From positions 248,001 through 312,000 of the forward strand of contig JAIUPD010000005.1 in the NCBI GenBank assembly GCA_020161615.1: 64,000 nt of DNA, given 5' to 3'. Both the position numbers and the translations under genes were made by a program. The notes under the pieces were generated by a model, which saw nothing but the letters and a program-made list of their open reading frames with translations, had not been told where the DNA came from and ran no database searches. Each line of letters starts with the position of its first letter. Position 1 is the first letter of the stretch. This document shows positions 49,227-63,421 of the stretch, piece after piece. Source of the DNA: Pseudomonadota bacterium (GTDB taxonomy: Bacteria; Pseudomonadota; Alphaproteobacteria; Rhodobacterales; Rhodobacteraceae).

Positions 49227-49301
49227 TCCGGCGTAGCTCAGCGGTAGAGCAGTTGACTGTTAATCAATTGGTCGTAGGTTCGATCCCTACCGCCGGAGCC
49301 A
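49227..49301 (+). tRNA. tRNA-Asn (anticodon GTT), integration site of the element
   Basis: A complete 75-base cloverleaf with encoded CCA. The acceptor stem is TCCGGCG/CGCCGGA, the D stem GCTC/GAGC, the anticodon loop CTGTTAA with anticodon GTT, and the T arm GTAGGTTCGATCCCTAC. The last 45 bases are duplicated at 63373-63417, so the gene was the target of site-specific integration and was restored by the element's attL sequence. Confidence 0.95.
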
Positions 49302-49305
49302 AAAA
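49257..49305 (+). repeat. attL direct repeat (49 bp)
   Basis: From CTGTTAATCAATTGG in the anticodon loop through the tRNA 3' CCA plus four further A residues. It is identical base for base to 63373-63421. Confidence 0.93.
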
Positions 49306-49371
49306 TCTAGAATATTTACAAGATGTTAGCGGGCCGCTCCTCCGGGCGGCCTTCGCTATTTTTGGCTGGTT

Positions 49372-49391
49372 CTGCAACATCTCTGCAACAT
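49372..49391 (+). promoter_or_regulatory. candidate integrase arm-type sites, left end
   Basis: CTGCAACAT occurs at 49372-49380 and again at 49383-49391. A matching pair lies at 63235-63243 and 63247-63255 at the other end, in the same orientation. Paired short repeats internal to both att ends are typical of integrase arm-binding sites. Confidence 0.5.
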
Positions 49392-49486
49392 TTCGACACG
49401 CCTCCGCAAACGTGGAGGCTTCCGCTCACTCTTGACCAGATCGCGTCAAAGTTCTGCCACATCAGTGCTTTAGCCGTAACACTGCC

Positions 49487-50263
49487 ATGCTTCGGACCTT
49501 CGAAAATACCCGGCCCTACGCCCAACCACTCGCGGCCATCGAGGTGCGCGGTAAACCGTGCGCGTTGCCACCCGACTTCGTTCAGGGTCTCGACTTCCTT
49601 CGCCGCTTCACTGTTAGCCACCATGAAGTGCTGCGATGGGTCTATCTGGTCGACGGCAGGCTCTACGCCGCGTCGAACAGTATGATCATCGACTACGAGA
49701 TCGGTTCTTGCGAGCTGGAAGACTCGGCTTTCCTGCCGTTGATTTGCCGCATCCTTGCTGGCTTTTATGCACCGCCGGATAGCGTTGTCATCGACTACAT
49801 GACCTATGTGTTTACTTGGGACGACGGACAGGAACTTCTTGTTGATTGCAGCAACACGGCGTGGCGCCCAGTTTCCTCCGTCGGTGACCGAATCAAGGAC
49901 ATGATCGCGGGCACCTTCAAACGCCATTGGAGCTTTGGCGAGGTCACCCACATAGACGACGAGACACGCGAGAGTTTGAAGCGTTCTTTCGATGGCCGTG
50001 GGAACGGTGACATTTTCTTTGATGGTCAGACAGCTATCTACCGCAATGACACGCGCACATCGGAACATCTGCGACCATTCCCCTCGAACACCGAAGGACT
50101 GATCCGCTTCGACCGCAAGCCGTTCCTCGCCATGCTGAAGGTCGCGACCGAGATCGACTTTTCGGCAAGCCCCCTCTGCTTCCGGCATGCGCACGGGCGC
50201 GGAATGCTCGTGCGGCGCACCTTGGGGCGCGACGTGCCGACGTTCGGGGGCGAAGATGGCTGA
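49487..50263 (+). CDS. hypothetical element protein, possibly sliding-clamp-like
   Basis: The 258-residue protein is the first gene inside attL. Its alternating strand pattern (HHEVLRWVYLVDGRLYAASN, DSVVIDYMTYVFTWDDGQEL) and the C-terminal RFDRKPFLAMLKVATEIDFS recall DNA polymerase clamp-like proteins carried by some phages. No motif proves this, and I would rate the resemblance as weak. There is no clear ribosome binding site before the ATG. The 3' end overlaps the next gene by 8 bases, so three leftmost genes form a rightward operon. Confidence 0.6.
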   Translation: MLRTFENTRPYAQPLAAIEVRGKPCALPPDFVQGLDFLRRFTVSHHEVLRWVYLVDGRLYAASNSMIIDYEIGSCELEDSAFLPLICRILAGFYAPPDSVVIDYMTYVFTWDDGQELLVDCSNTAWRPVSSVGDRIKDMIAGTFKRHWSFGEVTHIDDETRESLKRSFDGRGNGDIFFDGQTAIYRNDTRTSEHLRPFPSNTEGLIRFDRKPFLAMLKVATEIDFSASPLCFRHAHGRGMLVRRTLGRDVPTFGGEDG

Positions 50264-50888
50264 ACCTCTCGACGGCTTCTTCTTCCATCCTGATGGCGGT
50301 TCACCTGATGCGCAGCTTGCGCGCCTCCTTGCGGGTGAGCACAATCCCAACTTCGACAGCCCCTTCTCGGCGACCTTTGACGAGGTGGACGACGAGATCA
50401 GGGGTGTTGAGGCGGAACGGAAAAGGCTGCTCGCGCGTCTTGTCATGCTACGGGAGAAGCTGGTGTCGCTTCGCGCTCATCGGCAGCAGGTCACAGAGGC
50501 CGTTGAGCGATTCGAGGCAACAGGTGAGATTGCTCCCCTGCTAATCCCTGCGTGCAAGGCGCTGTCCGCGAAAGAGCAAGCAGCCCTTCGGAAGGCAGAC
50601 GATCCGATCAAGAATACCGAGATCGACAACGCAAAGGCGACGCTTGCGGCCAGCCTGCCCGGAGGGTGGGATGTGACCGAGACGACCGCAGACGACGAGT
50701 TTGTCTATGTGACGATCAAGCGCCGCCGCGAAGTTGTCGCGGCAGAACGCCCGTCACACGAAACGACCCGAGAGGGGATCGTCGAAAAGGTGAAGCAGGC
50801 TTTCGAAGCGTATCGCCGAGACTTTCTGAACAGCGCGCGCCCGCTTCGGATCGTGACGACAACGGCCAGTCCGAGGGCGTCCCCATGA
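50256..50888 (+). CDS. coiled-coil hypothetical protein, 210 aa
   Basis: The protein begins MAEPLDGFFFHPDGGSPDAQ and has a long charged helix at about residues 45-85 (EIRGVEAERKRLLARLVMLR and on), predicted as coiled coil. A compact C-terminal part follows (LPGGWDVTETTADDEFVYVT). The ATG at 50256 overlaps the preceding gene, and the stop overlaps the next start (ATGA). In a phage-derived element it might be a replication accessory protein, but I recognise no family. Confidence 0.6.
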   Translation: MAEPLDGFFFHPDGGSPDAQLARLLAGEHNPNFDSPFSATFDEVDDEIRGVEAERKRLLARLVMLREKLVSLRAHRQQVTEAVERFEATGEIAPLLIPACKALSAKEQAALRKADDPIKNTEIDNAKATLAASLPGGWDVTETTADDEFVYVTIKRRREVVAAERPSHETTREGIVEKVKQAFEAYRRDFLNSARPLRIVTTTASPRASP

Positions 50889-51205
50889 ACAAGTTGAGTT
50901 GGGAAGGCGACCTAACTGAGGGAGACCTCTGGAAGCTGTTCTCAAGCGACCCGGCAGAAGCCAGCGACACCATCCTTTTCTACAGCCAGATCAAGCCGCT
51001 GCTTGCCAAGTTGAAGCTTCAAGACGAGACGCGGTTCTACCACGTCTTTGCCCACTCGACCGTGCCAGAGCGGCCAGAGTGCGCACGCCTGCGCGCCACC
51101 GTGACCCAGCGAAACCTTCGCAAAGTCGCGGCGGCATTCGCGGCTGAGAACGACGACGCTGCGATCCAATATCATGGCCGCGGTGTAGCGCATCGAAACC
51201 GTTAG
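50885..51205 (+). CDS. hypothetical protein, 106 aa
   Basis: The small acidic-to-neutral helical protein starts MNKLSWEGDLTEGDLWKLFS. Its ATG overlaps the preceding stop by 4 bases, so it is the third gene of the left-end operon. AKLKLQDETRFYHVFAHSTV and RNLRKVAAAFAAENDDAAIQ are its most distinctive stretches. I do not recognise it. The sequence after its stop changes to lower G+C where the R-M module begins. Confidence 0.55.
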   Translation: MNKLSWEGDLTEGDLWKLFSSDPAEASDTILFYSQIKPLLAKLKLQDETRFYHVFAHSTVPERPECARLRATVTQRNLRKVAAAFAAENDDAAIQYHGRGVAHRNR

Positions 51206-51239
51206 AGCAGTTGAGACGCCGAAGGACCAGACACTGGTC

Positions 51240-51336
51240 TTGACAGGCTTTGCAAGGTGGCCATTCCTCGAGTACTGTTCCAAGAAGTTCAGTCGTTGCG
51301 TCTTGCACTGTCGCCCACACAAGATATTGTGGGGGG
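51240..51336 (+). promoter_or_regulatory. promoter and hairpin ahead of the methyltransferase gene
   Basis: TTGACA at 51240-51245 is a good -35 match; a -10 is less clear. Just before the start codon CCCACA (51314-51319) can pair with TGTGGG (51328-51333), burying half of the GGGGGG ribosome binding site. This could throttle methyltransferase translation. Confidence 0.35.
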
Positions 51337-52560
51337 ATGGATGACTCAATGAACCTTATCTTCGACCCCGCTCAGGCGCTGGAAAGCTCCGCTTTCCATG
51401 GTCGCGTTCAATCTAGCGAAGACCAACATCGGCTCGACATCGTGGCTAAGGAGCGAACAAGCGCGCTTCCGTGGCGTGGGCAATTTAGTCCTCAACTGGT
51501 CGAGTATCTGTTGAGCAGACATTCTGAAGCCGGAAAAACCATCGTTGATCCGTTTTGTGGAAGTGGCACCGTGCTACACGAAGCCGCCAGAAGCGGTGCG
51601 CACGCACATGGGTTTGACGTAAATCCTGCTGCAATTTGCTTGGCAAAAGTTAGTGAATTATCGAATTTGGATATGGCTGCGCGCTGGGCCTTGATTGATT
51701 CACTTCGCGCCTTTTCGCATAGACTTGGCTCACTAACCCCAAGTCATGGCATGATAAGTTGTGCGGATGCAGTGGCTGCTATTGACGCTTCGCGGGATGA
51801 TCCAGTAACCCGAACGGCACTAGAAGGTTTTTTACTGTTTGCCTTTACAAATGGAACCGCAATTAGCCCGCCAAATTTGCGGAGAGCAACTGAACGCTAT
51901 CTATCAGTCCTTGCCGACTTGCGTCAAACCAACTGCACCATTATGGCACAAGTTGGTGATGCCCGCTCAATACCTGCAGATCCTGCCACATTTGACTACA
52001 TGATTACGTCCCCCCCCTACATCAACGTATTTAACTACCACCAAAATTATCGACCGATTATTGAGGCGCTCGGTCATTCTCCTCTTGCAGCAGCCAAGTC
52101 AGAGATTGGCGCAAACCGTAAGTTTCGTCAGAATAGATACATGACAGTAGTGCAGTATTGCATGGACATGGCTTGGTTTTTTGTGGAGGCGAGGCGGATA
52201 CTGAAGGATAGTGCCAAACTTACGATTGTTTTGGGCCGAGAGTCGAACGTTAGGTCTGTTTCTTATAGAAACGGAGAGCTCATTAGTGCGATTGCTTGCG
52301 AAGGCATAGGCTTCAAACTCATCGACTGGCACGAGCGAAAGTTCACCAATAGATTTGGTGAAGCTATTTTTGAGGATGTCCTGACGGTCGTACCGGCCAC
52401 TGCTACGCTGGAACATGCGCTCGGGATCGGTCGTGCGGTTGGACGGCAAGCACTTGAGAACTCGCTCGAGTACTGCCCTATTGACCGTCGGGCAGAAATT
52501 GAGGCCGCAATAGAATCTGCAAACAGCATTGAGCCTTCTCAGATATCGGGGGCAATTTGA
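51337..52560 (+). CDS. DNA methyltransferase (DPF-CGSG / SPPY type)
   Basis: The 407-residue protein has the SAM-binding motif I DPFCGSGTVLHEAA (residues 71-84) ahead of the catalytic motif IV TSPPYINVFNY (from about 224). This is an amino-methyltransferase, and SPPY favours N4-cytosine over N6-adenine. It should protect host DNA from the restriction enzyme encoded by the next gene, whose ATG overlaps its stop. The start at 51337 follows GGGGGG. The gene is far richer in A/T, especially at third positions, than its neighbours, indicating separate transfer. Confidence 0.88.
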   Translation: MDDSMNLIFDPAQALESSAFHGRVQSSEDQHRLDIVAKERTSALPWRGQFSPQLVEYLLSRHSEAGKTIVDPFCGSGTVLHEAARSGAHAHGFDVNPAAICLAKVSELSNLDMAARWALIDSLRAFSHRLGSLTPSHGMISCADAVAAIDASRDDPVTRTALEGFLLFAFTNGTAISPPNLRRATERYLSVLADLRQTNCTIMAQVGDARSIPADPATFDYMITSPPYINVFNYHQNYRPIIEALGHSPLAAAKSEIGANRKFRQNRYMTVVQYCMDMAWFFVEARRILKDSAKLTIVLGRESNVRSVSYRNGELISAIACEGIGFKLIDWHERKFTNRFGEAIFEDVLTVVPATATLEHALGIGRAVGRQALENSLEYCPIDRRAEIEAAIESANSIEPSQISGAI

Positions 52561-53486
52561 TGGTACAAGTCATCCAAACTCGCGCGCACGGCGACAAGTT
52601 GCGCGCACTCGCAGACAATGTGAAGCTTCCGGAACAAGATCGACCGAGGGTCGAGGCTCAAATCGCAAAATATGATGAGTGGGTTTCCAAACTCAATGCT
52701 CTTGAGGGCCAAGGTGATGGGCTTCTTCACTCAATGGTGGATTTGCTGAATGAGTACAAAAAATCGGTCGAGTTTGATTTGATTTTTTGTTCCGGGGATG
52801 ATTTCTTGTATCGCCAGAAGGGCCAACTTAAACTAGATAACACAATTCTTGAGGAGTTTTTGCCACGTCTTTTTGATTCAAGGCTTGTTCCAGGCTTTAG
52901 CAGACAAAACGGACTGGAATGCGGCCCTCGCGCAAGTTTCGCGGGGCTTTCTTTTGAAAGCCCGTTGCTTCCGTTGGCCGCTGGCGGGGTTTATGTGAAG
53001 AGAAAAGATCAGGACTTCTCAGTAACTAGGCAACACAAGCTCAGAATTACAACCACGTCAAACCCTAAAGATGTGTTCGAGCAGGACTTCCATGTCTCCT
53101 ACTTTGCGACAGAGATTAAAACCAACCTTGATAAAACAATGTTTCAAGAGGCTGCGGCAACAGCAGGAGAATTAAAGAGAGTTTCGTCTGGATCCAAGTA
53201 TATACTTCTTTGCGAATGGCTCGACATGACGCCAATCAATACTAAGCTCACTGCGATGGACGAGGTGATCGTCTTGAGGAGGGCCAAAAGGTTAGGCTCG
53301 AACCTTCGTTCTGACTTTTCGACTGCGGCTGGACGAAAGGCGGCAAAGGAGTGGTATTCCAGATTTCTTGATGACCACCCGCTGAGTTATGATGGATTTA
53401 AGCGCTTCGTATGGCACCTTAATGAGTGCTTTCCCGCAGAGGAGCACGACGCCGAAGACGTGGTTTTGGAACGAGGCTATTTCTAG
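52560..53486 (+). CDS. Bpu10I-like type II restriction endonuclease
   Basis: The 308-residue protein closely resembles the Bpu10I restriction endonuclease family: VEFDLIFCSGDDFLYRQKGQ then LKLDNTILEEFLPRL (residues about 70-104), the probable catalytic EIKTNLDKTMFQEA (185-198), and LLCEWLDMTPINT. Bpu10I itself is a two-subunit enzyme for the asymmetric site CCTNAGC; the site here cannot be deduced. The ATG at 52560 overlaps the methyltransferase stop (TGATG), a usual way to ensure modification first. Codon usage is A/T-rich like the methyltransferase. Confidence 0.82.
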   Translation: MVQVIQTRAHGDKLRALADNVKLPEQDRPRVEAQIAKYDEWVSKLNALEGQGDGLLHSMVDLLNEYKKSVEFDLIFCSGDDFLYRQKGQLKLDNTILEEFLPRLFDSRLVPGFSRQNGLECGPRASFAGLSFESPLLPLAAGGVYVKRKDQDFSVTRQHKLRITTTSNPKDVFEQDFHVSYFATEIKTNLDKTMFQEAAATAGELKRVSSGSKYILLCEWLDMTPINTKLTAMDEVIVLRRAKRLGSNLRSDFSTAAGRKAAKEWYSRFLDDHPLSYDGFKRFVWHLNECFPAEEHDAEDVVLERGYF

Positions 53487-53493
53487 GCGTGCC

Positions 53494-54213
53494 TTAGTAG
53501 TAGCCCGCCAATGTAGATACGGTAACTGACTGACGGCGCAAATACTGCGACGAGAATGCTCCGACGATGAGCGCAATCCCAAGGTCGCCATGACCGGACG
53601 CCGACCGCGATTGGGTGATGATCTGGTTACCAGCAACAGTTGTCGCCGTTGTGAAGGATGCAAGATCGGCTTCGATCTCGGAGCGCAGCGGGCAGTCGTG
53701 GGCAAACTTGATCTCGCCTGCGGCGAACATCACTGCGAGGTTTTCGACCATGAAGGTCTTGCCTGCTGAGACGTAGCGGCTTGACTTCTTCGACCAGTCC
53801 TGCCCGCCCGTCATCGTTATAGCGTGGTGCGGGACCGACTGCGCTTGCATCATGTCCGACACGACGCGTCCGATGGACGTGCCGTCGATGGCGAGGAGGG
53901 ATTTGCCGCCGAAGGGCTGAGCGTTGCGCAGGCGGATCAGGTAGTCCACAACATCGACGTAGGAGACGCCACGGAACCGGTCAGCATAGACGATGGTGCG
54001 CTCCCTCGGCCCGACGATGATCTTGCCAGAATCGACAATCGGCAGCGCCTGATCCTTGAGCACCACGACCGCCGAGAAATCGTTGGCCTGCCCCAAGTCG
54101 GCAGCGATCCAATAATTCTGATAGCCTGTGACGCGCGGAATTCCCGGGTCCATGTTGGTTTCGTTGATCACCCGGCCATCGGGCAGATAGACCAGGTTCA
54201 AAGTCGTGGACAT
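53494..54213 (-). CDS. terminase large subunit, nuclease domain as a separate protein
   Basis: The 239-residue protein has the RNase H-like nuclease layout of phage terminases: YWIAADLGQANDFSAVVVLK with the first acidic residue at about 39, KSLLAIDGTSIGRVVSDMM with the second, and GHGDLGIALIVGAF with the last acidic residue near the C-terminus. It should cut packaged DNA. It overlaps the ATPase gene by 16 bases but has its own GGAGG site 7 bases before the ATG, so the split from the ATPase is built in rather than a frameshift. It converges on the R-M module. Confidence 0.75.
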   Translation of the reverse strand: MSTTLNLVYLPDGRVINETNMDPGIPRVTGYQNYWIAADLGQANDFSAVVVLKDQALPIVDSGKIIVGPRERTIVYADRFRGVSYVDVVDYLIRLRNAQPFGGKSLLAIDGTSIGRVVSDMMQAQSVPHHAITMTGGQDWSKKSSRYVSAGKTFMVENLAVMFAAGEIKFAHDCPLRSEIEADLASFTTATTVAGNQIITQSRSASGHGDLGIALIVGAFSSQYLRRQSVTVSTLAGYY

Positions 54214-54998
54214 ATTGCACCCTCCGTGCTTGTCGCGTTTTCGATTATGCTGAGATCAAAGTAGCTCGTGCCGTCAGCCAGCATTTCCACCTCGATCTCG
54301 GCGCGGAACTTCGTCGCGGACAGCGTGCGGCGCATCCGCTCGACCTTCTCTGCCAGCCTCGGAATGCTCGTGCCTTTGACGACGATGCGATGGACATCTT
54401 TGTCCATGCGTTCGCGCCCGTTCTCGTCGAGGAACAGGCGGGCGAAATAGTTGTTCTTCCCGGCAGGTGTGCTGCTGAAATAGACCTGCCCGCGCGTCGT
54501 GAGCATGGGCAGAACACCGGCAATCAGATCCTCGCCGCCACCCTCGCCTTGGAGAAATGCGCACTCGTCGATCACGAGCAACGACACGGACGGGTAGCCC
54601 CGGATCGTATCAGACGTGGACGGCAGCGCGATCACGCGGGCACCGTTCGACATTTCGAGTTCGGTCAAAGTGGATCGCGTGATGACCAGATCGGTGCGGC
54701 GAATCTGGCGGCCGATTTCGCGGGCGATGATCTTCGCCTGCCGTTCCGCGGGGGCGATGCAGAGCGAGAGGGATTCCGGGACGTGCAATTCCTCGACGGC
54801 GCGGGCGGCGAGGACCGATGTCTTGCCCGACTGACGCCCGACGCGGCACGCCACTTCGGACGCGCGGGTCGTGAACATCTCGACTTGCCAATCGTCCGGC
54901 TCGTGACCCATCCAATGGGCGAGGCGCGCCCTCGGGTCGAGGGAGCGTTCAAGGTCGCGCGCCCATGCTGTGAACCCGTCAAATGCCAACGCCGTCAT
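54198..54998 (-). CDS. terminase large subunit, ATPase domain as a separate protein
   Basis: The 266-residue protein carries the packaging-motor ATPase motifs: Walker A RVGRQSGKTSVLA (P-loop residues 54-60), Walker B SLLVIDECAF (acidic pair about 144-145), and the coupling motif YFSSTPAGKNN. It ends right after the motor domain with YFDLSIIENATS. The nuclease half follows as another gene. The start overlaps the upstream small-terminase candidate by 20 bases. Together TerS, ATPase and nuclease form a leftward packaging operon. Confidence 0.85.
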   Translation of the reverse strand: MTALAFDGFTAWARDLERSLDPRARLAHWMGHEPDDWQVEMFTTRASEVACRVGRQSGKTSVLAARAVEELHVPESLSLCIAPAERQAKIIAREIGRQIRRTDLVITRSTLTELEMSNGARVIALPSTSDTIRGYPSVSLLVIDECAFLQGEGGGEDLIAGVLPMLTTRGQVYFSSTPAGKNNYFARLFLDENGRERMDKDVHRIVVKGTSIPRLAEKVERMRRTLSATKFRAEIEVEMLADGTSYFDLSIIENATSTEGAICPRL

Positions 54999-55575
54999 CC
55001 TCTTTCGTCACGGATAGAACGTGCTGCCGCATCTTGCGCAGCAGCGGTTCGCGGGCGGCGGGAACCTCGACGCAGACTTCTTGGAGGATGCGGCGCAGCG
55101 TGACCCATTCGGGCGCTTGCGAGAGAGTGACCGAAACGGTCAGATTGGTCGCGAGCCTCCCCTGCATCGTGGCGATGTCGCGCAGGACTTTCCGCAGGCC
55201 TTCCATCGCGGACAGGGCAAAGCCGTCATCTTCGTTCTGCTCGGCCTTCGTGATCAGGGCTTCAACGCGCTTCGCCAGCGTTTCGTAGGTGCGGGCAACA
55301 TCCATGCGGTCCTCGTTCAGGACGGCGGTATCGCCTTCGACCTTGGACAGGCGCACCTCAGCCAGCACGGCGCGCACCATTTCCTCCGTGATGTGATCCT
55401 TGCGGAACCGCACGATGGAATCCGGGTGCATCCCGAGGCGCTTCGCGACCTGCGCCTTCGTCATCCCACCCGGCAGGTTGTTTTCACCCAAGATGATCTG
55501 TTTGATGATCGTCTTGCGCTCCGGGTGCATCAGGATCGTGTTCTTGCGGCCACCGCCACGCCTGCCGTCAGCCAT
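54979..55575 (-). CDS. terminase small subunit candidate, HTH protein
   Basis: The 198-residue protein starts MADGRRGGGRKNTILMHPER and has a helix-turn-helix near residues 37-60 (GMTKAQVAKRLGMHPDSIVR). Helical sequence and a basic tail follow. Position directly upstream of, and overlapping, the terminase ATPase is the usual place of TerS, which recognises the packaging site and loads the motor. The HTH alone could equally be a regulator, so the call rests largely on context. The start at 55575 is preferred over in-frame codons upstream that overlap another gene. Confidence 0.65.
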   Translation of the reverse strand: MADGRRGGGRKNTILMHPERKTIIKQIILGENNLPGGMTKAQVAKRLGMHPDSIVRFRKDHITEEMVRAVLAEVRLSKVEGDTAVLNEDRMDVARTYETLAKRVEALITKAEQNEDDGFALSAMEGLRKVLRDIATMQGRLATNLTVSVTLSQAPEWVTLRRILQEVCVEVPAAREPLLRKMRQHVLSVTKEDDGVGI

Positions 55576-55576
55576 T

Positions 55577-55966
55577 TCAGGTGTCTCCCGAAAGCGAAGT
55601 TGAGGCGAAGATCGGCGCGCCGTTATCGTCGCCATACCAACGGACGCGGGCACGTAGCCGGTCCCATTCTGCAACGGAGACATCGACCAAATGATCATAA
55701 ACGCGATTTGCGAACTGTTCCCCAACGCCCGACCGCAGGAGGTCGTCGCGCAACTTGCCAAACGAGATGCCGTCGAGATGGAGCTTCATCATCCCGGCAA
55801 GCGTGGCGATCACGGCAGCCGTCGGGCTGCCTGACGGGTCGAGAGGTTCAATCCCGTGGCGGGTGACGATCTCGCCACCACGGAGGACGATCACCTCGTC
55901 CTCCGCACAGAACCCAAGCCCGATGCGGTAGGCCCATTCGAGGCAGGCACGATCAATCGGCGTCAT
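55577..55966 (-). CDS. hypothetical protein, 129 aa, packaging operon
   Basis: A small protein starting MTPIDRACLEWAYRIGLGFC with mixed helical and strand character (EDEVIVLRGGEIVTRHGIEP, VSVAEWDRLRARVRWYGDD). Its stop is one base from the TerS candidate start and its own start overlaps the coiled-coil gene upstream by 14 bases. The tight spacing argues it is real and part of the packaging operon. I recognise no family. Confidence 0.55.
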   Translation of the reverse strand: MTPIDRACLEWAYRIGLGFCAEDEVIVLRGGEIVTRHGIEPLDPSGSPTAAVIATLAGMMKLHLDGISFGKLRDDLLRSGVGEQFANRVYDHLVDVSVAEWDRLRARVRWYGDDNGAPIFASTSLSGDT

Positions 55967-56576
55967 GAGCCTTCTCCATCAGGTGCAGCTTGGCCTGCAT
56001 GTGCTCGGGCAGATCGTCAGGCGTGCGCCACGTCTGGACCCGCAGGCCAAGGCGCTCCGCCTCAAGGCGGCGTTGCACGATGCCGTGGCCCGTGTTGTGA
56101 TCGGCGCGGACATACCGAATACGGTGGTGGTCGTCGTCGAGGCTGATGGTTTTCGTCTGGGCGATGGCCGTGGCGGAATGGGTGTTGCGGCGGGTCGGAT
56201 CGTCGCGGTCGTCCGCTATCTTCAAGGGAAGACCAGCTTTCGCCGCCGCCTCTTTCGCCGCCCGATACTTGGCAGGATCGCGGGCGTCTGCGCGGCTGAT
56301 TGTGTGGGCAGGCAAGGTCGATGTATTCAAGCGCAGATTGCCGTCAGCATCCCTTGTGAAGTTGGCGCTCTCAAGGGCACGGTCGCGCTGCTGTTCCTCG
56401 AGGGTCTGCAACAGCGACTTTTTCTCCCGCTTGAGGTCTTTCGCCTCGTCCAAGATGCGCCCGTTGAAGGCGTGCAAATCGTCGAGGCGCTTCTGCTGCG
56501 CTGTGACGGTCTCGGTCAGGGCCGTGACCTGTTTCAGGAGGGCTTGAAGGGCTGCGGTCGTGTCGTTCTCAGGCAT
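55953..56576 (-). CDS. coiled-coil hypothetical protein, 207 aa, packaging operon
   Basis: The protein starts MPENDTTAALQALLKQVTAL and has a continuous charged coiled coil over about residues 8-65 (TVTAQQKRLDDLHAFNGRIL, EAKDLKREKKSLLQTLEEQQ). A C-terminal basic part (HHRIRYVRADHNTGHGIVQR) follows. The ATG at 56576 has AAAGGA 8 bases upstream; other in-frame starts lie at 56591 and 56636. Scaffold-like proteins and DNA-binding accessory proteins in phages can look like this, but no family match is visible to me. Confidence 0.6.
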   Translation of the reverse strand: MPENDTTAALQALLKQVTALTETVTAQQKRLDDLHAFNGRILDEAKDLKREKKSLLQTLEEQQRDRALESANFTRDADGNLRLNTSTLPAHTISRADARDPAKYRAAKEAAAKAGLPLKIADDRDDPTRRNTHSATAIAQTKTISLDDDHHRIRYVRADHNTGHGIVQRRLEAERLGLRVQTWRTPDDLPEHMQAKLHLMEKAHDAD

Positions 56577-56645
56577 GTGGCGTCCTTTCATCTGCCGAGG
56601 GCGGTGCGCTGACCAAGAGGGCAGAGAGGGACGCACCGCGAACAG

Positions 56646-57095
56646 TTACAATATAACGGTGGCTGTTGATCTGACCGACCGGGCGCGTGAGGTGGAGGTC
56701 GGTTGATTTAGGTGGAACCACCGGGCGCGGGCGTAAGCGACGCGTTCCGCGTGGCGTGCGAGGGCACGCTTCCGACTTTCGGGATTCGAGGGCACTTCAT
56801 AGGCAATGTGCGGCATGGGCAGATCGCCGTCCAGCATCCGGCGCATTCGCTCGGCCAGCACGTCGCCGTCGATGCCGACCAAGTCGCAGTAGTGGTTCCG
56901 AAGGCGGGCGGCGGGGCCTGAGCGGTCGGTCAGGAAGCGGATCGCGCGGTCAACGTCGTTTTGCTGAACGGGTGCGGAATCTGCCCAGCTTTCCGACCTG
57001 GACTCAATGTCCGTCAGCACGTCGCGGTAGGCACCGATCAGGATGGCCGCGATCAGCCGTTGTTCCGGCGTCCATAGGGGGTCGCGGTCGAGCAT
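56646..57095 (-). CDS. hypothetical protein, 149 aa, packaging operon
   Basis: First full gene of the leftward operon. The protein starts MLDRDPLWTPEQRLIAAILI and is mainly helical with a basic C-terminal half (NPESRKRALARHAERVAYAR). Its ATG overlaps the stop of an 11-codon leader that has a strong ribosome binding site, so its translation is probably coupled to the leader. I do not recognise the family. It ends 69 bases before the coiled-coil gene. Confidence 0.5.
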   Translation of the reverse strand: MLDRDPLWTPEQRLIAAILIGAYRDVLTDIESRSESWADSAPVQQNDVDRAIRFLTDRSGPAARLRNHYCDLVGIDGDVLAERMRRMLDGDLPMPHIAYEVPSNPESRKRALARHAERVAYARARWFHLNQPTSTSRARSVRSTATVIL

Positions 57096-57130
57096 CAGGC
57101 GTCAGTGCCAGCGGGGGCGGTGTGCTGCAT
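57095..57130 (-). CDS. 11-aa leader peptide coupled to the next gene
   Basis: A GGAAGGAG site 7 bases before an ATG opens a short frame, MQHTAPAGTDA, whose TGA overlaps the next gene's ATG (TGATG). The downstream gene lacks a good site of its own. This looks like translational coupling through a mini-gene, though the peptide may have no function. Confidence 0.4.
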   Translation of the reverse strand: MQHTAPAGTDA

Positions 57131-57375
57131 GGACGCGCTCCTTCCGCGTTGGGCGCGCGCACCGGGTGGTTGGGTTGATCCACTGGGTTCCGGTGCGCGC
57201 AGGCGGGAGGCATTTCCATCGGGTCGCGCGCCTCCCCAACCCAGCAGTGATTGCGTAACACCTGTGGGATGGGCGATGGTCTTCGGATTAAGGTGGAGCG
57301 GGAGGAAATTTAGGTGCCGACGGCGTGTGCGGTGAATGCCCGGAAGATGCCACGCGATATTGAGAAGGACGATTG
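57131..57375. promoter_or_regulatory. divergent control region with 11-bp inverted repeat
   Basis: The region separates the leftward packaging operon from the rightward UDG-like gene. It contains perfect arms GCGCGCACCGG (57155-57165) and CCGGTGCGCGC (57190-57200) around a 24-base spacer. The repeat may be an operator, a replication or packaging recognition site, or an mRNA leader structure. Confidence 0.4.
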
Positions 57376-58005
57376 ATGACACCGACAGACGAATTGAAAT
57401 CCTTGCTGCTGGAAACCTACCAACCGTGCCGGTTCTTCGGGCAGTGTCGCGAGGCGCAATGGGGACCGGAGAGCGGGCATATCCCTCGCGGGTATGTCGG
57501 AGCGACGGGTTCGCCCGAAGATGTCGAAGTCATCATGGTTTTCGCGGAGCCGGGACACCCGCACGCGGACGAAAGATACGACGCGGCGTTGGGCGCGGAG
57601 GGCCTGATGGCCGCTTGCACCTCACATGCCTATGAGAGCTTCAAGAACGGCACGGACCTGTTTCACCGCAACGTGCGGTGGTTCATTTCCCAACTCTACC
57701 CGGACATGACCTTCGACGAGCAGTTGCAGCGGGTGTGGTTGACCGAAGGACGTCTCTGCTCCATCGACGTTGAGATTGGGAAGACCACGGATCGAACATG
57801 CGCCGCCAATTACTTGGTCGAGCAGATCAGGCTGTTGCCCAACGCCGCCGTTGTAGCCTTCGGCGGCAAGGCAAAACACTACCTCAACGGGTTGGGCGTC
57901 GATTTCATAGCTGCCTACGCGCTCGCTCCACCCGGCGCAAATCACAAGCCCGCCCGCCCAAGCTGGGAGGCGGCGATTGAGGCGGTGAAGGCGAGACGTC
58001 AATAG
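57376..58005 (+). CDS. uracil-DNA-glycosylase-superfamily-like protein
   Basis: The 209-residue protein shows features that recall the UDG superfamily: VEVIMVFAEPGHPHADERYD where UDGs have a G-E-A/D-P-G block, YLVEQIRLLPNAAVVAFGGK where they have a strand ending in a glycine pair, and a late PGANHKPARPSWEAAI near the usual His-Pro-Ser loop. Several cysteines (CRFFGQC, CSIDV, CAANY) might be iron-sulfur ligands, but the spacing is not canonical. It could act on modified bases or be an antidefence factor. The ATG at 57376 has AGGA 6 bases upstream. Confidence 0.5.
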   Translation: MTPTDELKSLLLETYQPCRFFGQCREAQWGPESGHIPRGYVGATGSPEDVEVIMVFAEPGHPHADERYDAALGAEGLMAACTSHAYESFKNGTDLFHRNVRWFISQLYPDMTFDEQLQRVWLTEGRLCSIDVEIGKTTDRTCAANYLVEQIRLLPNAAVVAFGGKAKHYLNGLGVDFIAAYALAPPGANHKPARPSWEAAIEAVKARRQ

Positions 58006-58594
58006 CGCGCAGCAGCGCGCCTATGAGGGGTGGTGCGTTAGCCGTGGGTGTCGTGTCGGACATGCCAAGGATACCGCCCAGCCCCCCAGCAGATCGAGCG
58101 ATTCACGGCACGGCGGGTGCGGACGACGCGGCGGAACAACGAACCAACCGCCGATGTGCGGTATCCGACCTTTTGTGTCGCTGAATGCGCCCGAGAAGAC
58201 GATCTTTTTGGTTCCCTATTTCGCGATGTTGCAGATGAAACGCGCTCTGCAACACCGCCAGCCCATATCCGCTTTGAAAAGAATCGGTTAGCGGATTGGA
58301 CAAGTTGCATTGGCATCAATTGGTCGTGGCGAACCGGCCCGATAGTCGAGGTGTTCGCATCAAGAAGGTGGAGAGCACGCCCGGACCTCACCGAGCAGTT
58401 CGATGGACGCCGCCGTCGAGCACGCCACAACTGACAGGCACCACAAGAATGACACGGGGTTCATCCTACCGGGAAAAGTTAGTTGGTTGGTCGGTCAACA
58501 TTCACCAACCAACCAACTAATGTTTTCCTATACCTACAGCGCCATGTTATCCCTGACATCCGTGCAAACGTGGACCGACTTAGAGGAGATCGTC
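58006..58594. other. 589-bp interval without a convincing gene, with strong hairpin
   Basis: Open frames exist on both strands (about 58048-58434 plus, 58038-58430 minus), but neither has a ribosome binding site or recognisable features. GCGCGC-AGCA-GCGCGC at 58005-58020 follows the UDG-like stop. A larger inverted repeat lies at 58479-58520. The stretch could hold an RNA, an origin or a packaging site. Confidence 0.4.
58479..58520. repeat. 13-bp inverted repeat with tetranucleotide character
   Basis: TTAGTTGGTTGGT (58479-58491) pairs perfectly with ACCAACCAACTAA (58508-58520) across a 16-base loop. The arms consist of repeating GGTT/AACC units. It lies 74 bases before the ADP-ribosyltransferase-like gene. 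Confidence 0.8.
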
Positions 58595-59011
58595 ATGAGA
58601 TGCCCCCAGCCTGCTTTTGCACCCGCCGTCGGCCAGAGTGGATATTTCCGCATGACGATGTATCGAGGTATTCGGTCAACAAAACTTCACGCTGAGTTCG
58701 CTTCCGACCCCGGCGACTACGGCAGAGGTGTTTACTGGGCCGCAACGCGAGAGTTCGCAGAGATCTACGGCGACGAGATCATCTGCGATGAGGTTTGCCT
58801 CTCGAACGCTTTGCGACTGGACCATCGGGAAGTTGGCACGGTAGCTCGTGAGCGGGGAATCACGCGGATGGAGGATGGCCACGAAGCGCGATTGATCGCG
58901 GCAGAAGCCTTTACCAACGAGATGCGCGCATTGGGCTATGATGGCATTGTGGTCGAAGGTTATGAACAGCCGGGCCTTTGGTCGGCTTGCGTGTTCCCTG
59001 CTGTAACTTAA
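58595..59011 (+). CDS. ADP-ribosyltransferase-like protein, 138 aa
   Basis: The sequence pattern fits small ART-fold proteins of phages: MTMYRGIRSTKLHAEF supplies the first-strand arginine, GRGVYWAATREFAEIYGDEI is the usual G-x-Y-W/F-A-T plus helix following the NAD pocket, and MRALGYDGIVVEGYEQPGLW resembles the late GYDGIV block with acidic residues. Such enzymes can modify host RNA polymerase or defence proteins. The ATG at 58595 has GAGGAG 6 bases upstream. Upstream in-frame sequence runs through the inverted repeat and is not coding. The call is by pattern and needs structural comparison. Confidence 0.55.
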   Translation: MRCPQPAFAPAVGQSGYFRMTMYRGIRSTKLHAEFASDPGDYGRGVYWAATREFAEIYGDEIICDEVCLSNALRLDHREVGTVARERGITRMEDGHEARLIAAEAFTNEMRALGYDGIVVEGYEQPGLWSACVFPAVT

Positions 59012-59048
59012 GTTCGCATAGAGGCGGCGCCGATGCGCCGCCCCGAGT

Positions 59049-61496
59049 TCATCGCTGCATCGCAGCCAGTTCTTCCGCCGTGATCTCCGGCGGCGGGATA
59101 AGCAGCCACTTCCGTGACTTCTTGTCGATCTGCCACCCCCGCTTGCGCAGCGCGGGCTTGAGCTGGTTCAACTCGCGGCTCAGTGTCGCCGCCGTCAGAG
59201 GCAATCGCGCGAGGTTCATGCCCCGCGCCTCTGCCGACTGCCGCATGACCTCCAACAACTCCTGCGGCGTGCCGAGGAACTTTCCCTGCCGCGCCACCGG
59301 TTCCTGCATCGCTTCAAGCGCCTGCATCGTCACGGAGTCATCCGCCGCCTCGTCCTGCGCGATAGCCTGCGCCTCGACCATGACACTAATGAACCAGCCA
59401 GGTTCCTTCCCGAGAACGCGCGCTGTCGCCTCGCCAATTGCGCCGAACTCGGCCAACCGAACGTTGTCCGCGAAGTCATACGGGTCGATCTGCGGCAGCA
59501 CCTTCAACACATTGGAAACAAGGCCGACGACCGCGCCGAACATGCGCGGTGCAGAGTCCGCGAGGCGCCGTTCAAACTCGGATTCGAGCATCCTACGTTC
59601 CGGCTTCACCAGTTCGATCTCGACCATCCGCGAGATCAGGTCCGCCGCGTACTTCGACGGGTCGATGCCGTTGACGATCACAGGACGGCGCACCCAGATC
59701 GAAAACAGGTCGCCGTTGGTGAACAACTGCCGCACCTCGAACCCCATCCCCGTCGTGATCCCGCAGAGCGTGTCCGACAGCTTAGTCAGATCGGACATGT
59801 TCTCGAGGGTCAGGACGTAGTTGTGCCATGCACGGATCAGCACATCGTCGGGCTTCTCGCCGCCGGGGGCGACCATTGCCGTGACGGGATCAATCAGTGA
59901 CCGCATCACCCGTGTCGTGGATGTCTTGGCCGATCCATACTCGCCAATCAGGTTGACGATGGGCGACGGGGTGTCGGGGAAGAACATCTTCACGGCGCAG
60001 GCCATGAAGATGGCGAACTGATCATCGTCCATGTTCACCATCGACCGAATGTCATCGAGGGTGCCATCGGCAAGTCGAAGGGGAAGTTGCCGCGACCGAC
60101 GGAACACCACGGGACATTCGTGGTCGCCGTCGATCAGGTCGATACCCTCGGCCGAGATCACGAGGACACGATCCTCAGCGTCGCATAGATCGACATAGAT
60201 GCGGGGGCCGACCTTCGCGACCCGTAGATGCACGTCTTCAACAGTCTCATGGGCGTGCGCCCGCGCTATGCCAACGACAAGGCCGATCTGCTCCTGGCTA
60301 GGAGTCACGCCGCTCGAATAGGCCGCGCGCCGCAGCCAATCCGCAAACTCGATTGAGTCGATCCGCATAACCCGCCTCGGGCCGACCCGTGCGTAGGCGG
60401 TGCCATCGGGATCGCGGAACAGCTTTAGCGAACCGACTACGTCATCAAGGATGACTTTCGTCTGATCCCCTTTCCGATCAAGTTGCACCTCGTCAGGCAA
60501 TCCGCCGGTGTATCCCCCAACCCGCGCATAGGCCCAAAACGGCTCCTTGCCGCACTTGCCCGCTTTAATGATGTCTTCCCACTTGTCGAGGACATCCCGC
60601 TCGGAGACGAAGCCGTCGGTTTCCTTTGAGTAAGTCAGCCAGTGTTCGCGGCCATCTGCGCCGAAGGCACCGAAAATGTTGAACCCAGCGTCCGACCAAG
60701 CCTTGTAGCCGCCACCGGGGCGCGCCTTCATGAACGCCTGCAAGGCCGCCGTCTCATCGACCGCCTTCGTGCGCTGCCCGTTCTTGGGGCCGGGCTTCTG
60801 GGCTCGCGCCAACCGAAGAACGAGTTCGCCCCCTTCCTCGAACTGCATCGCGCCCGACTGGTCGATCTCAGTCGGCGTGAGGACGATGCTTTCGAGGGCG
60901 AGGGGCAACGCCACTACCGGCCGCTTGCCACCCTTCGGCAGCAACTCGACATGGTGTTCCACGGCATAGATGTCATGCTTCGGATGCTTCTTCCACACCC
61001 TGTCTGTGTCGTGGAACATCCCCTTGCCCTGCCCGTCGTCAGGCACAAACTTTTCGTGCGCCCAAGGCGACTGGCCGAGGATGCGGTTGGCCGTGTCGAG
61101 AACATCGCGCATCCTTGCGCGGATGCTGTCCATACGGGCGGCAATCTCGAAGGTGACCCACACATGGTAGCCGCGCCCGCCGCCGGAGCGGACAACGAAG
61201 TAGGGGATGCCCATTTCGCGGAGTGCGCGGGCAATATAGCCGACCCGCTTACGCATCACCCAAGCGTCGTGTTTTCCACCGTGATCATCAAGGTCGAACA
61301 CGGCGAAGTGGGACTTGTCGTCCCCTACGTTCATGTTGATCCCGATAGGTTGGGTGCCGTCGAGGTGCGCGCAGATCACGTCGTCCGTGATCGCGCGGTC
61401 CTTGGGGTAGTATGCCTTCTTGCCGTCCTTCCAATGCAACTCCGAGTAGCCGGGGCCAGCGAGGGCAGCGATCTGTTTCAGTCCGTCCATTCCCAT
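59049..61496 (-). CDS. AEP-type primase fused to P-loop ATPase/helicase
   Basis: The 815-residue replication protein starts with an archaeo-eukaryotic primase domain: the metal-binding FAVFDLDDHGGKH (residues 64-76) and VVRSGGGRGYHVWVTF (101-116). A later block reads DIYAVEHHVELLPKGG. The C-terminal half has Walker A IGEYGSAKTSTTRVM (P-loop about 518-526, with Ala-Lys-Thr in place of Gly-Lys-Thr) and Walker B-like NYVLTLENMSDL. It should prime and unwind the element's origin. AlpA-like and integrase genes follow upstream on the same strand. Confidence 0.85.
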   Translation of the reverse strand: MGMDGLKQIAALAGPGYSELHWKDGKKAYYPKDRAITDDVICAHLDGTQPIGINMNVGDDKSHFAVFDLDDHGGKHDAWVMRKRVGYIARALREMGIPYFVVRSGGGRGYHVWVTFEIAARMDSIRARMRDVLDTANRILGQSPWAHEKFVPDDGQGKGMFHDTDRVWKKHPKHDIYAVEHHVELLPKGGKRPVVALPLALESIVLTPTEIDQSGAMQFEEGGELVLRLARAQKPGPKNGQRTKAVDETAALQAFMKARPGGGYKAWSDAGFNIFGAFGADGREHWLTYSKETDGFVSERDVLDKWEDIIKAGKCGKEPFWAYARVGGYTGGLPDEVQLDRKGDQTKVILDDVVGSLKLFRDPDGTAYARVGPRRVMRIDSIEFADWLRRAAYSSGVTPSQEQIGLVVGIARAHAHETVEDVHLRVAKVGPRIYVDLCDAEDRVLVISAEGIDLIDGDHECPVVFRRSRQLPLRLADGTLDDIRSMVNMDDDQFAIFMACAVKMFFPDTPSPIVNLIGEYGSAKTSTTRVMRSLIDPVTAMVAPGGEKPDDVLIRAWHNYVLTLENMSDLTKLSDTLCGITTGMGFEVRQLFTNGDLFSIWVRRPVIVNGIDPSKYAADLISRMVEIELVKPERRMLESEFERRLADSAPRMFGAVVGLVSNVLKVLPQIDPYDFADNVRLAEFGAIGEATARVLGKEPGWFISVMVEAQAIAQDEAADDSVTMQALEAMQEPVARQGKFLGTPQELLEVMRQSAEARGMNLARLPLTAATLSRELNQLKPALRKRGWQIDKKSRKWLLIPPPEITAEELAAMQR

Positions 61497-61621
61497 GTCT
61501 CACTTCCCGTGAGATTGGTTCCTCAAACTCCGGTTCGTTGCCGCCGTGAAAACCACTATAAATCGGTTATCAATTCTGCGCTTGGCGACACCGAATGGGG
61601 CGGGAGCCAATCTCGCCCCTT

Positions 61622-61870
61622 TCACTTATTGACCCGGCGTTCCCGCGCCCATGCGAGCACATCGTCACGGTCATAGCGGATCGTCCGCTCCGTGATGTGG
61701 AGGTAAGGCGGCCCCTGTGTTGCGGCAGACGGACGCCTGCGCCAGTCGAACAAAACGCTTTCGGATACACCGAGGAATTCTGCGCATTCGGCGGGTGTCA
61801 TCAGTTTGGGCGAGGTCGAGATATTCTCGATGGCGGCGCGGAGCGCGCGCATTTCTTGTGCGAGGTCCAT
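61622..61870 (-). CDS. AlpA/MerR-like helix-turn-helix regulator or excisionase
   Basis: The 82-residue protein has a winged-HTH of the excisionase type at residues 24-75: KLMTPAECAEFLGVSESVLF then DWRRRP, the wing, and RYDRDDVLAWARERR. Proteins of this type regulate or assist excision of P4-like elements. The ATG at 61870 is preceded by GAGGGA. It sits between the primase and the integrase genes on the same strand, the usual arrangement. The longer frame upstream (to 61951) lacks support. Confidence 0.85.
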   Translation of the reverse strand: MDLAQEMRALRAAIENISTSPKLMTPAECAEFLGVSESVLFDWRRRPSAATQGPPYLHITERTIRYDRDDVLAWARERRVNK

Positions 61871-62001
61871 GTTTAGTCCCTCAATTTCGCAGGTGAGGGA
61901 AGGACGGCGCGATATGCTCAGCGCAGGCGTATGGTCGGTCTGTGTCCTCAACGAGGGCCGCTATTCCGACCGCGACACCCTCGCATATAGCCCATGGTCG
62001 A

Positions 62002-63255
62002 TTACTTGGTCGCCACGACCGCAATATCGCGCCCATTCGCGATACGCTCAACTACGAAAGCAGGTGCCAAATTGTTGGAGCGGATGATCTCGTCGGCGAT
62101 GGCGTTGACGTGGGCATGTGTGCCTGCCCGCGTGAGGTAGTGGCCGACCATCTTCTGCTGATCCGACGTTATCTTGTCGCCGCGCAGGTGGGCGACGACG
62201 TAATCAGGCAGCAGTGCGTTCGCACCAGCCGCCGTGAACAAGCGGCGGGTGTCGTGCTGGCGCAGCAGTTTGGTTTCGATCCGCTTGCCATCAACCTTCT
62301 CGACCTTGGTCAGGGCGGCAAGGGAGTAGATGTGGCCCGTGCGGGAGTCAGCCGGGAACACCCAACCCTCGCGGTGGGGCAGCGCAGAAAGCGCCAACAC
62401 CAGCACATCCGAGATCGGGAACGTGCGGTCGAGGCCGTTCTTCATCTTCCGCAGCGTGATCGTCTTGCCCGCGAGATCGACCTGATCCCAGTTCAAGGTG
62501 ATCACGGACAGCGACCGCATCCCGGTGAACAGCATGGTCAGCCATGCCGTCCGATGGACAAGGCTCGACATGTCGAGGATCAGCCCGAGTGCGGGCGACC
62601 CCTTGCTTTCGTCGAAGAGGATCTTCGGCGTCTTCCGCTCGACCCCTTTGACCTTCAAGTTCAGCGCGCGGTTGGGCAGGTTTTCCCGCGACTGGCAAGC
62701 GCGGCGGAAAGCCATCTTGAGCAACGTGGCGCAGTGCTGGGCCGTCGATTTCTTCCCCTCCGACTTCAACTTGGTCAGAAGGTCGTTCATCACGTCGAAG
62801 GTCACGCGCTCGACCGGCATGTCGAAGATCGGATCGAGATGGTTCTTCACCTGCAAGCGGTAGTTCGCCTCCGTCTTGGGCTTGAGCGTGCCATCGGCGC
62901 GACTTTCCCGGCAGTGGGCATCGAACGCATCGCGCAGCGTGGCGATCTTCGTTGTCGCGGCGTCCGTGCCCGTGGTCAGTTCGCGTAGCTTTGCCTCGGC
63001 CACCTTCCACGCCTCGTTGCCCGTGGGCAGTTCCGGCCAGTGGCCGAGCGTGATCGACTTGACCGATGCGCCTATCCGTTTGGACAGCACCCAAGTCTTC
63101 TTGCGGGTGCCGACGGCGAGGCGCAGGCCGGGGAAGGAGTCGCCCTTGTGGGAGAAGAACGTCGTGCCTGCGTCCGGGTTCTTGATCGCTTCGATCTTCG
63201 GGCGCGACCGCAGGTCTGCTTGATTGGCCATGTTCTGCAACATCCTCTGCAACAT
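62002..63255 (-). CDS. int: tyrosine integrase of the element
   Basis: The 417-residue protein is a P4-like tyrosine recombinase: N-terminal DUF4102-like arm-binding domain (GLRLAVGTRKKTWVLSKRIG), core-binding region, and catalytic domain with MLFTGMRSLSV (Arg), KLLRQHDTRRLFTAAGANAL (His-x-x-Arg), HLRGDK where most relatives have a G-H-K motif, and QQKMVGHYLTRAG with the nucleophilic Tyr at about residue 373. The gene starts within the right-hand CTGCAACAT repeat pair, 118 bases from attR. Alternative in-frame starts are 63243 and 63231. It catalyses integration at tRNA-Asn. Confidence 0.93.
   Translation of the reverse strand: MLQRMLQNMANQADLRSRPKIEAIKNPDAGTTFFSHKGDSFPGLRLAVGTRKKTWVLSKRIGASVKSITLGHWPELPTGNEAWKVAEAKLRELTTGTDAATTKIATLRDAFDAHCRESRADGTLKPKTEANYRLQVKNHLDPIFDMPVERVTFDVMNDLLTKLKSEGKKSTAQHCATLLKMAFRRACQSRENLPNRALNLKVKGVERKTPKILFDESKGSPALGLILDMSSLVHRTAWLTMLFTGMRSLSVITLNWDQVDLAGKTITLRKMKNGLDRTFPISDVLVLALSALPHREGWVFPADSRTGHIYSLAALTKVEKVDGKRIETKLLRQHDTRRLFTAAGANALLPDYVVAHLRGDKITSDQQKMVGHYLTRAGTHAHVNAIADEIIRSNNLAPAFVVERIANGRDIAVVATK
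63235..63255 (+). promoter_or_regulatory. candidate integrase arm-type sites, right end
   Basis: CTGCAACAT at 63235-63243 and 63247-63255, same orientation as the pair near attL. The second copy overlaps the integrase start codon, so occupancy could also regulate the integrase gene. Confidence 0.5.
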
Positions 63256-63329
63256 TCAGTTGCGCCATCATACGATCCAGCACGAAAGCGACCAACTCAT
63301 TTTTGTTGCAAATCGTTTAAAACCAGGGT

Positions 63330-63349
63330 CTAATACGGTCTAGTACGGT
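63330..63349 (+). repeat. tandem 10-bp repeats beside attR
   Basis: CTAATACGGT is followed directly by CTAGTACGGT (one mismatch), then GGTAC, 24 bases before attR. Short tandem repeats at this place are often excisionase or integrase sites. Confidence 0.5.
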
Positions 63350-63372
63350 GGTACACGACCCAGACAAGGCGT

Positions 63373-63421
63373 CTGTTAATCAATTGGTCGTAGGTTCGAT
63401 CCCTACCGCCGGAGCCAAAAA
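63373..63421 (+). repeat. attR direct repeat (49 bp)
   Basis: An exact copy of 49257-49305, that is the tRNA-Asn 3' half plus A residues. The 5' part of the tRNA is absent here, so this is only a remnant, not a gene. Confidence 0.93.

Follow-up and report, generated by a model that had tools for sequence, protein, structure and literature searches.

Among the described phage satellites, the phage-inducible chromosomal islands (PICIs), with the Staphylococcus aureus pathogenicity islands (SaPIs), are elements of about 15 kb that carry an integrase, a regulator and a primase and have no structural or lysis genes (PMC6092414). As described in the sources cited, PICIs encode at most a small terminase subunit (TerS), and capsid-forming PICIs (cf-PICIs) bring an entire capsid module together with the two terminase subunits (PMC10690885, PMC6092414). 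The SaPI protein CpmB has a C-terminal motif in common with the scaffold of phage 80alpha, attaches to the coat protein where the scaffold also binds and changes the capsid from T=7 to T=4 (PMC6893505). The element considered here lies in a 64,000-nucleotide stretch, called the window, of a Rhodobacteraceae genome (assembly GCA_020161615.1, contig JAIUPD010000005.1, positions 248,001 to 312,000). It is an integrative element bounded by attachment (att) sites, with its own integrase and replication gene. It also carries a candidate TerS, a large terminase (TerL) divided into two genes, TerL-N and TerL-C, and a gene, E, related by sequence to a phage head scaffold. The window element is probably a satellite that captures procapsids of Nanhaivirus-type siphophages by means of a scaffold mimic and fills them with its own terminase.

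The window element and its family share the size and gene set by which PICIs and SaPIs are recognized, and E is scaffold-like, as CpmB is. SaPI1-type islands are likewise about 15 kb, att-bounded and equipped with an integrase, a primase, their own TerS and accessory cargo (PMC6092414), and E, like the cpm product, would be a small scaffold-like protein bearing the C-terminal motif of the scaffold of its proposed helper (PMC6893505). The window element differs from SaPI1 in adding a full two-gene TerL to TerS, in its proposed helper, and in that no Stl-type repressor was identified in it, an AlpA-like gene being present in 27 of 28 family elements. Whereas PICIs rely on the TerL of the helper, the family has its own conserved TerL-N and TerL-C, whose use in packaging is predicted. 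Possession of both TerS and TerL is shared with cf-PICIs and with the Streptomyces satellites MulchRoom and MiniFlayer (PMC10690885), but these encode coat, portal and connectors, none of which was found in the window element; a sister clade encodes a portal, with no coat gene seen in it. The combination of integrase, AlpA and primase without virion genes recalls Gram-negative PICIs and P4-like elements, which are described as redirecting the helper's terminase (Rpp, cos sites; PMC10690885) and as having no TerL of their own. P4-like elements are defined by the lack of a terminase gene and by Sid/Psu, whereas TerL is present here and scans with Pfam and PHROGs named no Sid or Psu. Judged by its genes, the element is neither a standard PICI nor a cf-PICI, and its packaging into helper particles is predicted.

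The connection to a particular helper group comes from gene E. When the window stretch from gene F to TerL was compared by blastn with 50,697 phage records, the sole match was gene 93 of phage R26L, inside E (Table 1). Gene 93 stands directly upstream of the coat gene, and its homologue in R5C is annotated 'head scaffolding protein' and adjoins a P22-type major head protein. A profile built only from 32 satellite E proteins, run against 3,953 open reading frames (ORFs) of 13 phage stretches, recovered the scaffolds of the Nanhaivirus phages R26L (1.6e-14), R5C (6.9e-13) and Pan1 (2.5e-12), the match after these three having an E-value of 1.6. These siphophages are the source type of both the E motif and the sister-clade portal; they differ from the satellites as phages of 72-80 kb, and in R5C and Pan1 TerL is annotated as one gene. 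The motif is clear by eye in 31 of the 32 satellite E proteins. Patterns outside the motif found 16 scaffold loci in IMG/VR, one of which (L157), to judge from its length and C-terminus, is evidently R5C itself. The motif terminates 18 of 19 Nanhaivirus-like scaffold rows, with 13 distinct C-termini (shared among L153/L154/L158, L162/L163 and L167/L168, and between L157 and R5C), and the remaining row, L160, is cut by the contig end within the motif. It is lacking in the scaffold relatives of Acinetobacter phage qsb1, Pseudomonas phage AH14a and Vibrio phage 1.207.B, picked out of 139 phage records (motif matches for the three: E 0.5, 0.085 and none). Pseudomonas phage phiAH14a (L151), whose motif-free scaffold belongs to the Nanhaivirus scaffold family, is also the reported helper of the satellite AH14b. 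E measures 118-227 residues against 255 in the scaffold, and both ends align. Members of the E family match head proteins at E 0.06-0.1 only, a PDB profile search with E gave 0.39 at best, and comparison with a structural protein of Paracoccus phage Pkon1 gave no useful result. E is proposed, by analogy with CpmB, to be a scaffold mimic that serves capsid capture.

Portal genes of distant relatives point to the same phages. Six distant relatives carry a DUF4055 portal gene, as does a plasmid-borne element of Rhodobacteraceae SC52. The portal of G077 matches PF13264 (1.9e-37) and phrog_145 (3e-119); phrog_145 was matched in four of four aligned portals, the portal of G010 was recognized by profile, and that of G144 is broken. 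Three satellite portals have their best phage matches in Pan1, R5C and R26L at 39-52%, and the next among the matches listed lies at about 30%. In the portal tree, whose root placement is weak and in which G140b sits on a long branch, the seven satellite portals group in a single clade (98/98), next to three Nanhaivirus phages (89/98). The portal profile matched no locus of the window's clade and within the family matched in the distant clade only; no complete set of virion genes came to light there or in ten conserved family clusters inspected singly. No coat gene was seen in the sister clade, and a portal scan of IMG/VR gave no useful result. In the TerL tree, built by a quick method from 71 of 87 rows (16 were excluded as duplicates, fragments or damaged) and with long branches flagged, portal-bearing elements occupy two clades, one of which is the sister (88) of the 35-row clade of the window; this suggests that the window's clade lost the portal gene.

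Both TerL genes keep presumed catalytic residues. Compared with known structures, the TerL-N profile matched T4 gp17 (1.1e-18) and the terminase ATPase domain 4zni (2e-17), and the TerL-C profile matched the terminase nuclease domains 5tge and 5m1f at 2.9e-9 to 9.5e-9 (5tge 2.9e-9). The nuclease aspartates D39, D110 and D210 and the Walker-A residues G58 and K59 show no variation among ten aligned rows for each gene and are presumably the catalytic positions of TerL-C and TerL-N. In the window, TerL-C has its own ATG and a Shine-Dalgarno sequence and overlaps TerL-N by 16 nt. Of 26 junctions counted by eye, 23 have the TerL-C start 16 nt within the end of TerL-N; the start codon is ATG in 24, and GGAG stands just upstream in 22. 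These starts are the choice of a gene caller that favours ATG/GGAG-type sites. Median dN/dS (pairs with 0.15 < dS < 1.2) was 0.14 for TerL-N (72 pairs, range 0.03-0.96), 0.20 for TerL-C (65 pairs, 0.03-0.70), 0.24 for TerS (101 pairs, 0.04-1.15) and 0.14 for the integrase (79 pairs, 0.03-0.89), values which indicate that both TerL genes are under purifying selection.

A divided TerL also occurs in IMG/VR contigs, in two separate frames and with a TerL-C 20-28% identical. These contigs resemble the satellites in the arrangement of TerL and differ in that head genes follow: L105 has a portal (PF05133) and a coat gene (PF25209) downstream, L108 has a head-tail connector (PF12236), and head genes after the split TerL were seen by eye only in L109, L112 and L115. 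Since the split is present in phage contigs with head genes, it is a phage trait and not a sign of decay. Its origin in a sequencing error or lesion was rejected, given the 16-nt overlap at 23 of 26 junctions, the ribosome-binding site and the phage contigs; a reading of the G144 (L056) TerL as a fused gene was also dropped, the gene lying in two frames. Among the loci from L033 on in which both halves were found, a single frame was seen in Thermus phage Riverbug only, and in Meiothermus phage MMP17 a 415-aa frame was matched by the N half alone. As the 16-nt overlap gives the same frame relation in those 23 elements, a programmed frameshift may yield some fused TerL. In one relative (L049:12312-15245), a 978-aa frame unites the primase with the C-terminal portion of TerL-C, apparently through a deletion. 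Searches by tblastn with TerS and with TerL-C against phages returned nothing useful, and a literature search on split terminases was without result.

TerL-C matches occur in 25 of 295 genomes of the bacterial family, fragments counted, and a stricter profile matched 4 out of 385 genomes from across the class, one of them that of the window. A scan of species genomes gave 89 pattern matches and, from these, 39 loci: 37 lie in Alphaproteobacteria, nearly all of them Rhodobacterales by the titles of their records, and two (L099, L100) in metagenome-assembled genomes (MAGs) of Bacillota. Seventeen loci had no att pair in the stretch and two (L076, L084) were duplicate contigs; the 20 others were joined by the window element, G003, G035, G134, G113, G077, G229 and G144 in a census of 28, in which G077 and G144 have att repeats of just 20 bp. 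G211, G140a, G140b, G010, G141, G200 and L033 stood outside it, through damage or for want of a usable att pair. Of the att-bounded elements, 25 belong to the window's clade, and 27 measure 13.1-16.0 kb (G144 has 10.5 kb). The preliminary description of the window, made from its sequence, had suggested looking for its gene order in other Rhodobacteraceae, and the order int-alpA-replication-F-E-TerS-TerLN-TerLC indeed forms the common core of all 28, mostly from Rhodobacterales, with variable cargo. TerS and E are present in every element, TerL-C, TerL-N, AlpA and the integrase in 27 each, F and an 88-aa protein in 25 each, and D in 17. The replication genes are of several unrelated types, the AEP-TOTE-type primase of the window occurring in 7 of 28. 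The elements come from several genera and are integrated at tRNA genes (Asn, Thr, Ala, Lys or Gly) or else follow another element, and Roseovarius OX638333 has two in tandem. Among pooled accessory proteins, type II methylases headed the best 25 of 231 families in PADLOC; a pooled scan of 109 representatives covered the best 25 of 119 matched families, so that a coat gene present in a single element could escape these scans.

The family is widespread and apparently undescribed: no description was found in the open literature, although an earlier report is possible, a search on Rhodobacterales satellites was without result, and a term search of the accessible text of a Rhodobacteraceae prophage survey (PMC8224337) did not return the word 'satellite'. 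Several occurrences stand somewhat apart. Rhodobacter capsulatus DSM 1710, of the classic gene-transfer-agent species, has two family loci, L072 keeping the core from TerL-C to the integrase and L068 having TerL matches only. L099 and L100 are contigs from gut Bacillota MAGs with a split TerL of the same type. L120 is the circular Salinibacter ruber plasmid pSR14 (14,894 bp), with a primase-helicase, a split TerL (266 + 209 aa) whose C half is 22% identical, and another protein that is tape-measure-like by eye; it may be an episomal satellite, similar in size but from a different phylum. The IMG/VR contig L033 (IMGVR_UViG_2816332395_000004) has two TerS genes in a row, a TerL-N whose end is overlapped by gene A on the opposite strand, and a second, integrase-bearing segment bounded by a 46-bp tRNA-like repeat; with two TerS copies and no TerL-C match, it was not used as evidence of virions.

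On the proposed mechanism, infection by a Nanhaivirus-like siphophage would lead the element to excise and to replicate with its own primase. E, carrying the motif of the scaffold's tail end, would compete for the phage coat protein and would divert and probably shrink procapsids, as CpmB of SaPI1 does. The element's TerS would select element DNA, and its two-subunit TerL would dock on the portal and pump the DNA in. In the sister clade, an element-encoded portal of the same phage type would reserve procapsids for the element; in the window's clade, where the portal was probably lost, that of the helper would be used instead. Helper tails would finish the particle, and cargo such as the restriction-modification pair would protect the host. 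Gene D, which adjoins TerS, might be an adaptor, though this is a guess. The wider proposition, that a whole Rhodobacterales lineage seizes Nanhaivirus-type coat with a scaffold mimic, ancestrally had its own portal and fills the shells with a two-subunit terminase not like the helper's, is a serious but tentative one; if true, it would mark an intermediate step between TerS-only and capsid-forming satellites.

Several observations weigh against this account. Neither excision nor induction, packaging or a helper was observed. TerS is assigned by its position and its co-occurrence with TerL in the family, with no family match. The N-terminal match between E and the scaffold is weak (i-E 0.12), the motif is strongly diverged in the E protein of G140b, and, by eye, E proteins of the window's clade and of G077 run about 70-100 residues beyond the motif at which the phage scaffolds stop. 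E evolves faster than TerL, with a median dN/dS of 0.42 (42 pairs). No phage match was returned by tblastn when the query was either of two E proteins or the isolated 36-aa motif, a result which the BLAST low-complexity filter may affect. The link to the scaffold rests on the blastn and profile results. In R5C, TerL is encoded by one gene and is only a distant relative of the satellite enzyme (hhalign 81% over the ATPase core), which makes the action of a foreign TerL on the helper portal the weakest step for the window's clade. R5C is reported to infect only D. shibae among 19 strains (PMC5454422). In the IMG/VR scan the close clade is almost missing, its sole representative being one contig (L033), which has no TerL-C match.

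The main competitor is a satellite of a different working: E would be an adaptor associated with the portal or terminase and carrying a coat-binding segment, and concatemers would be packaged in full-size helper heads. That E adjoins TerS and TerL with no coat gene beside it, and that the motif is internal in the window's clade, would suit such an adaptor; phage-inducible chromosomal minimalist islands (PICMIs) are described as packaged in this way, as concatemers in capsids that are not remodelled (PMC10803314). The common segment is, however, the scaffold's own C-terminus, as in CpmB, and the adaptor is regarded as unlikely, though worth keeping in mind. The capture of Nanhaivirus-type procapsids also has to be set against particles from another source, a gene transfer agent or an unrelated prophage, an idea that verges on the implausible. 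The window's clade has no portal that would tie it to Nanhaivirus, and its family has its main host range in Rhodobacterales, over which clusters like the R. capsulatus gene transfer agent (RcGTA) also range; but RcGTA heads, which hold about 4 kb, are too small for 14 kb, and among the scaffolds read, with three other phages compared, the motif is confined to Nanhaivirus-like phages.

The preliminary description had left the choice between a satellite and a strongly reduced prophage. A decaying prophage that had lost its virion genes and could no longer move by packaging now has little credence. It would account for the presence of integrase, primase and terminase genes of phage type where no virion genes were detected, and for damage in relatives, TerL being short or broken in L070, L075 and L092 and joined to the primase in L049; yet size and gene order are similar in 28 att-bounded elements from several genera and tRNA sites, TerL is under purifying selection with its catalytic residues intact, and one Roseovarius record has a tandem pair. 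The family is uniform and its dN/dS low, and neither relaxed constraint nor irregular gene loss was found. The reduced prophage was rejected, and the satellite is favoured on the 28-element core and the TerL dN/dS.

The boundaries of the window element are exact (Table 1). The perfect 49-bp repeat, which the preliminary description had seen framing about 14.2 kb, recurs at a start-to-start distance of 14,116 bp and consists of the last 45 nt of tRNA-Asn plus 4 nt; the tRNA stretch has four matches in the genome, the distal att copy being the sole other one at 100%. The tRNA-Asn flank is kept in same-genus genomes. G685 has another member of the family at the same tRNA-Asn, with TerL halves 77 and 81% identical; G684, G691 and G679 have a single att-like copy and no TerL match within the 20 kb read; and G681 and G677 show a further att copy, at about 6 and 10 kb, with no match to the satellite family. 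Because occupancy differs among these six genomes, the site is polymorphic. To the right of the distal att copy stand a DRT2 reverse transcriptase (7.7e-125), a type II endonuclease (3.7e-144) and a methylase (4.5e-166), and the notion that the element is half of a larger prophage continuing there, raised at the outset as a possible refutation, was rejected in view of this DRT2-type reverse transcriptase and type II restriction-modification pair. These defence genes abut the satellite (L038:14485-18964, window 63485 to past its end), and the methylase there is of Eco57I type.

Pfam and PHROGs were searched with fifteen ORFs of the element, the 106-aa ORF lying outside that scan. No portal, coat, tail or lysis family was matched, so neither of the feared hidden genes, portal or coat, came to light; the original statement that virion genes are absent holds for these families and has to be amended for gene E as a scaffold relative. 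The integrase, AlpA-like protein, primase and split TerL named at first were borne out by family matches, and TerS stays a candidate (helix-turn-helix (HTH) match at E 0.0016, under the curated cut-off, and position). The methylase and Bpu10I-type endonuclease, the occurrence of the split TerL in phage contigs and the sister-clade portal are additions to that description. PADLOC did not match the endonuclease. An integrase match to a virion protein at E 0.41 is meaningless. The primase has a Walker-A-like motif downstream of its AEP-TOTE domain, by eye only, and a copy of gene G with 77% identity is found in L041. Gene D has no relatives in Pfam or PHROGs and no PDB match in a profile search. 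Gene A and its homologues resemble DNA sliding clamps by eye, with no match in the PDB profile search.

Table 1. Features of the window element and its integration site (window coordinates)
Feature	Position	Strand	Basis
tRNA-Asn(GTT), integration site	49227..49301	+	ARAGORN
att copy, 3' end of tRNA	49257..49305		perfect 49-bp direct repeat
Gene A, accessory	49487..50263	+	cluster in 7/28 elements
Gene B, accessory	50256..50888	+	cluster in 7/28 elements
Small accessory ORF, 106 aa, after A and B	50885..51205	+	gene call
N6/N4 DNA methylase, cargo	51349..52560	+	PF01555; PADLOC MTase_II; start from gene call
Bpu10I-type restriction endonuclease, cargo	52560..53486	+	PF09549 6.8e-68
TerL-C, nuclease half	53494..54213	-	phrog_27743 4e-25; phrog_5909 (terminase) 8.4e-6
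TerL-N, ATPase/translocase half	54198..54998 (start may be 54989)	-	phrog_7579 3.5e-35; PF03237 1.4e-10
TerS candidate (small terminase, putative DNA recognition)	54979..55575	-	weak HTH, position, 28/28 elements
Gene D, conserved, between E and TerS	55577..55966	-	17/28 elements
Gene E, putative scaffold mimic, proposed capsid-capture protein	55953..56576	-	28/28 elements; profile match to Nanhaivirus scaffolds
Motif common with Nanhaivirus scaffold C-terminus	56229..56309	-	blastn 77.8% over 81 nt, E 1e-7, R26L gene 93
Gene F, conserved	56646..57095	-	cluster in 25/28 elements
Gene G, weakly uracil-DNA-glycosylase-like	57376..58005	+	PF03167 E 0.12 only
Gene H	58403..59011	+	no Pfam/PHROG match; ADP-ribosyltransferase-like by eye only
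Primase with AEP-TOTE domain	59049..61496	-	PF22548 1.5e-12
AlpA-like HTH regulator/excisionase	61622..61951 (start may be 61870)	-	PF12728 (HTH_17) 2.6e-6, phrog_66
Tyrosine integrase	62002..63255 (start may be 63231)	-	PF00589 1.6e-9, phrog_1 3.7e-23
Distal att copy	63373..63421		49-bp repeat

A helper group is predicted here from sequence alone, a prediction that isolated roseophages (R5C, R26L) and carriers, for example Rhodobacter capsulatus DSM 1710, make testable. In this family the ATPase and the nuclease of a packaging motor are also available as naturally separate subunits. Defence cargo, together with TerL-C matches in 25 of 295 genomes, suggests a real role in the conflict between phages and their hosts. 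With a complete terminase and a putative scaffold mimic, with or without a portal and with no coat gene found, these elements would stand between SaPI-type and capsid-forming satellites.

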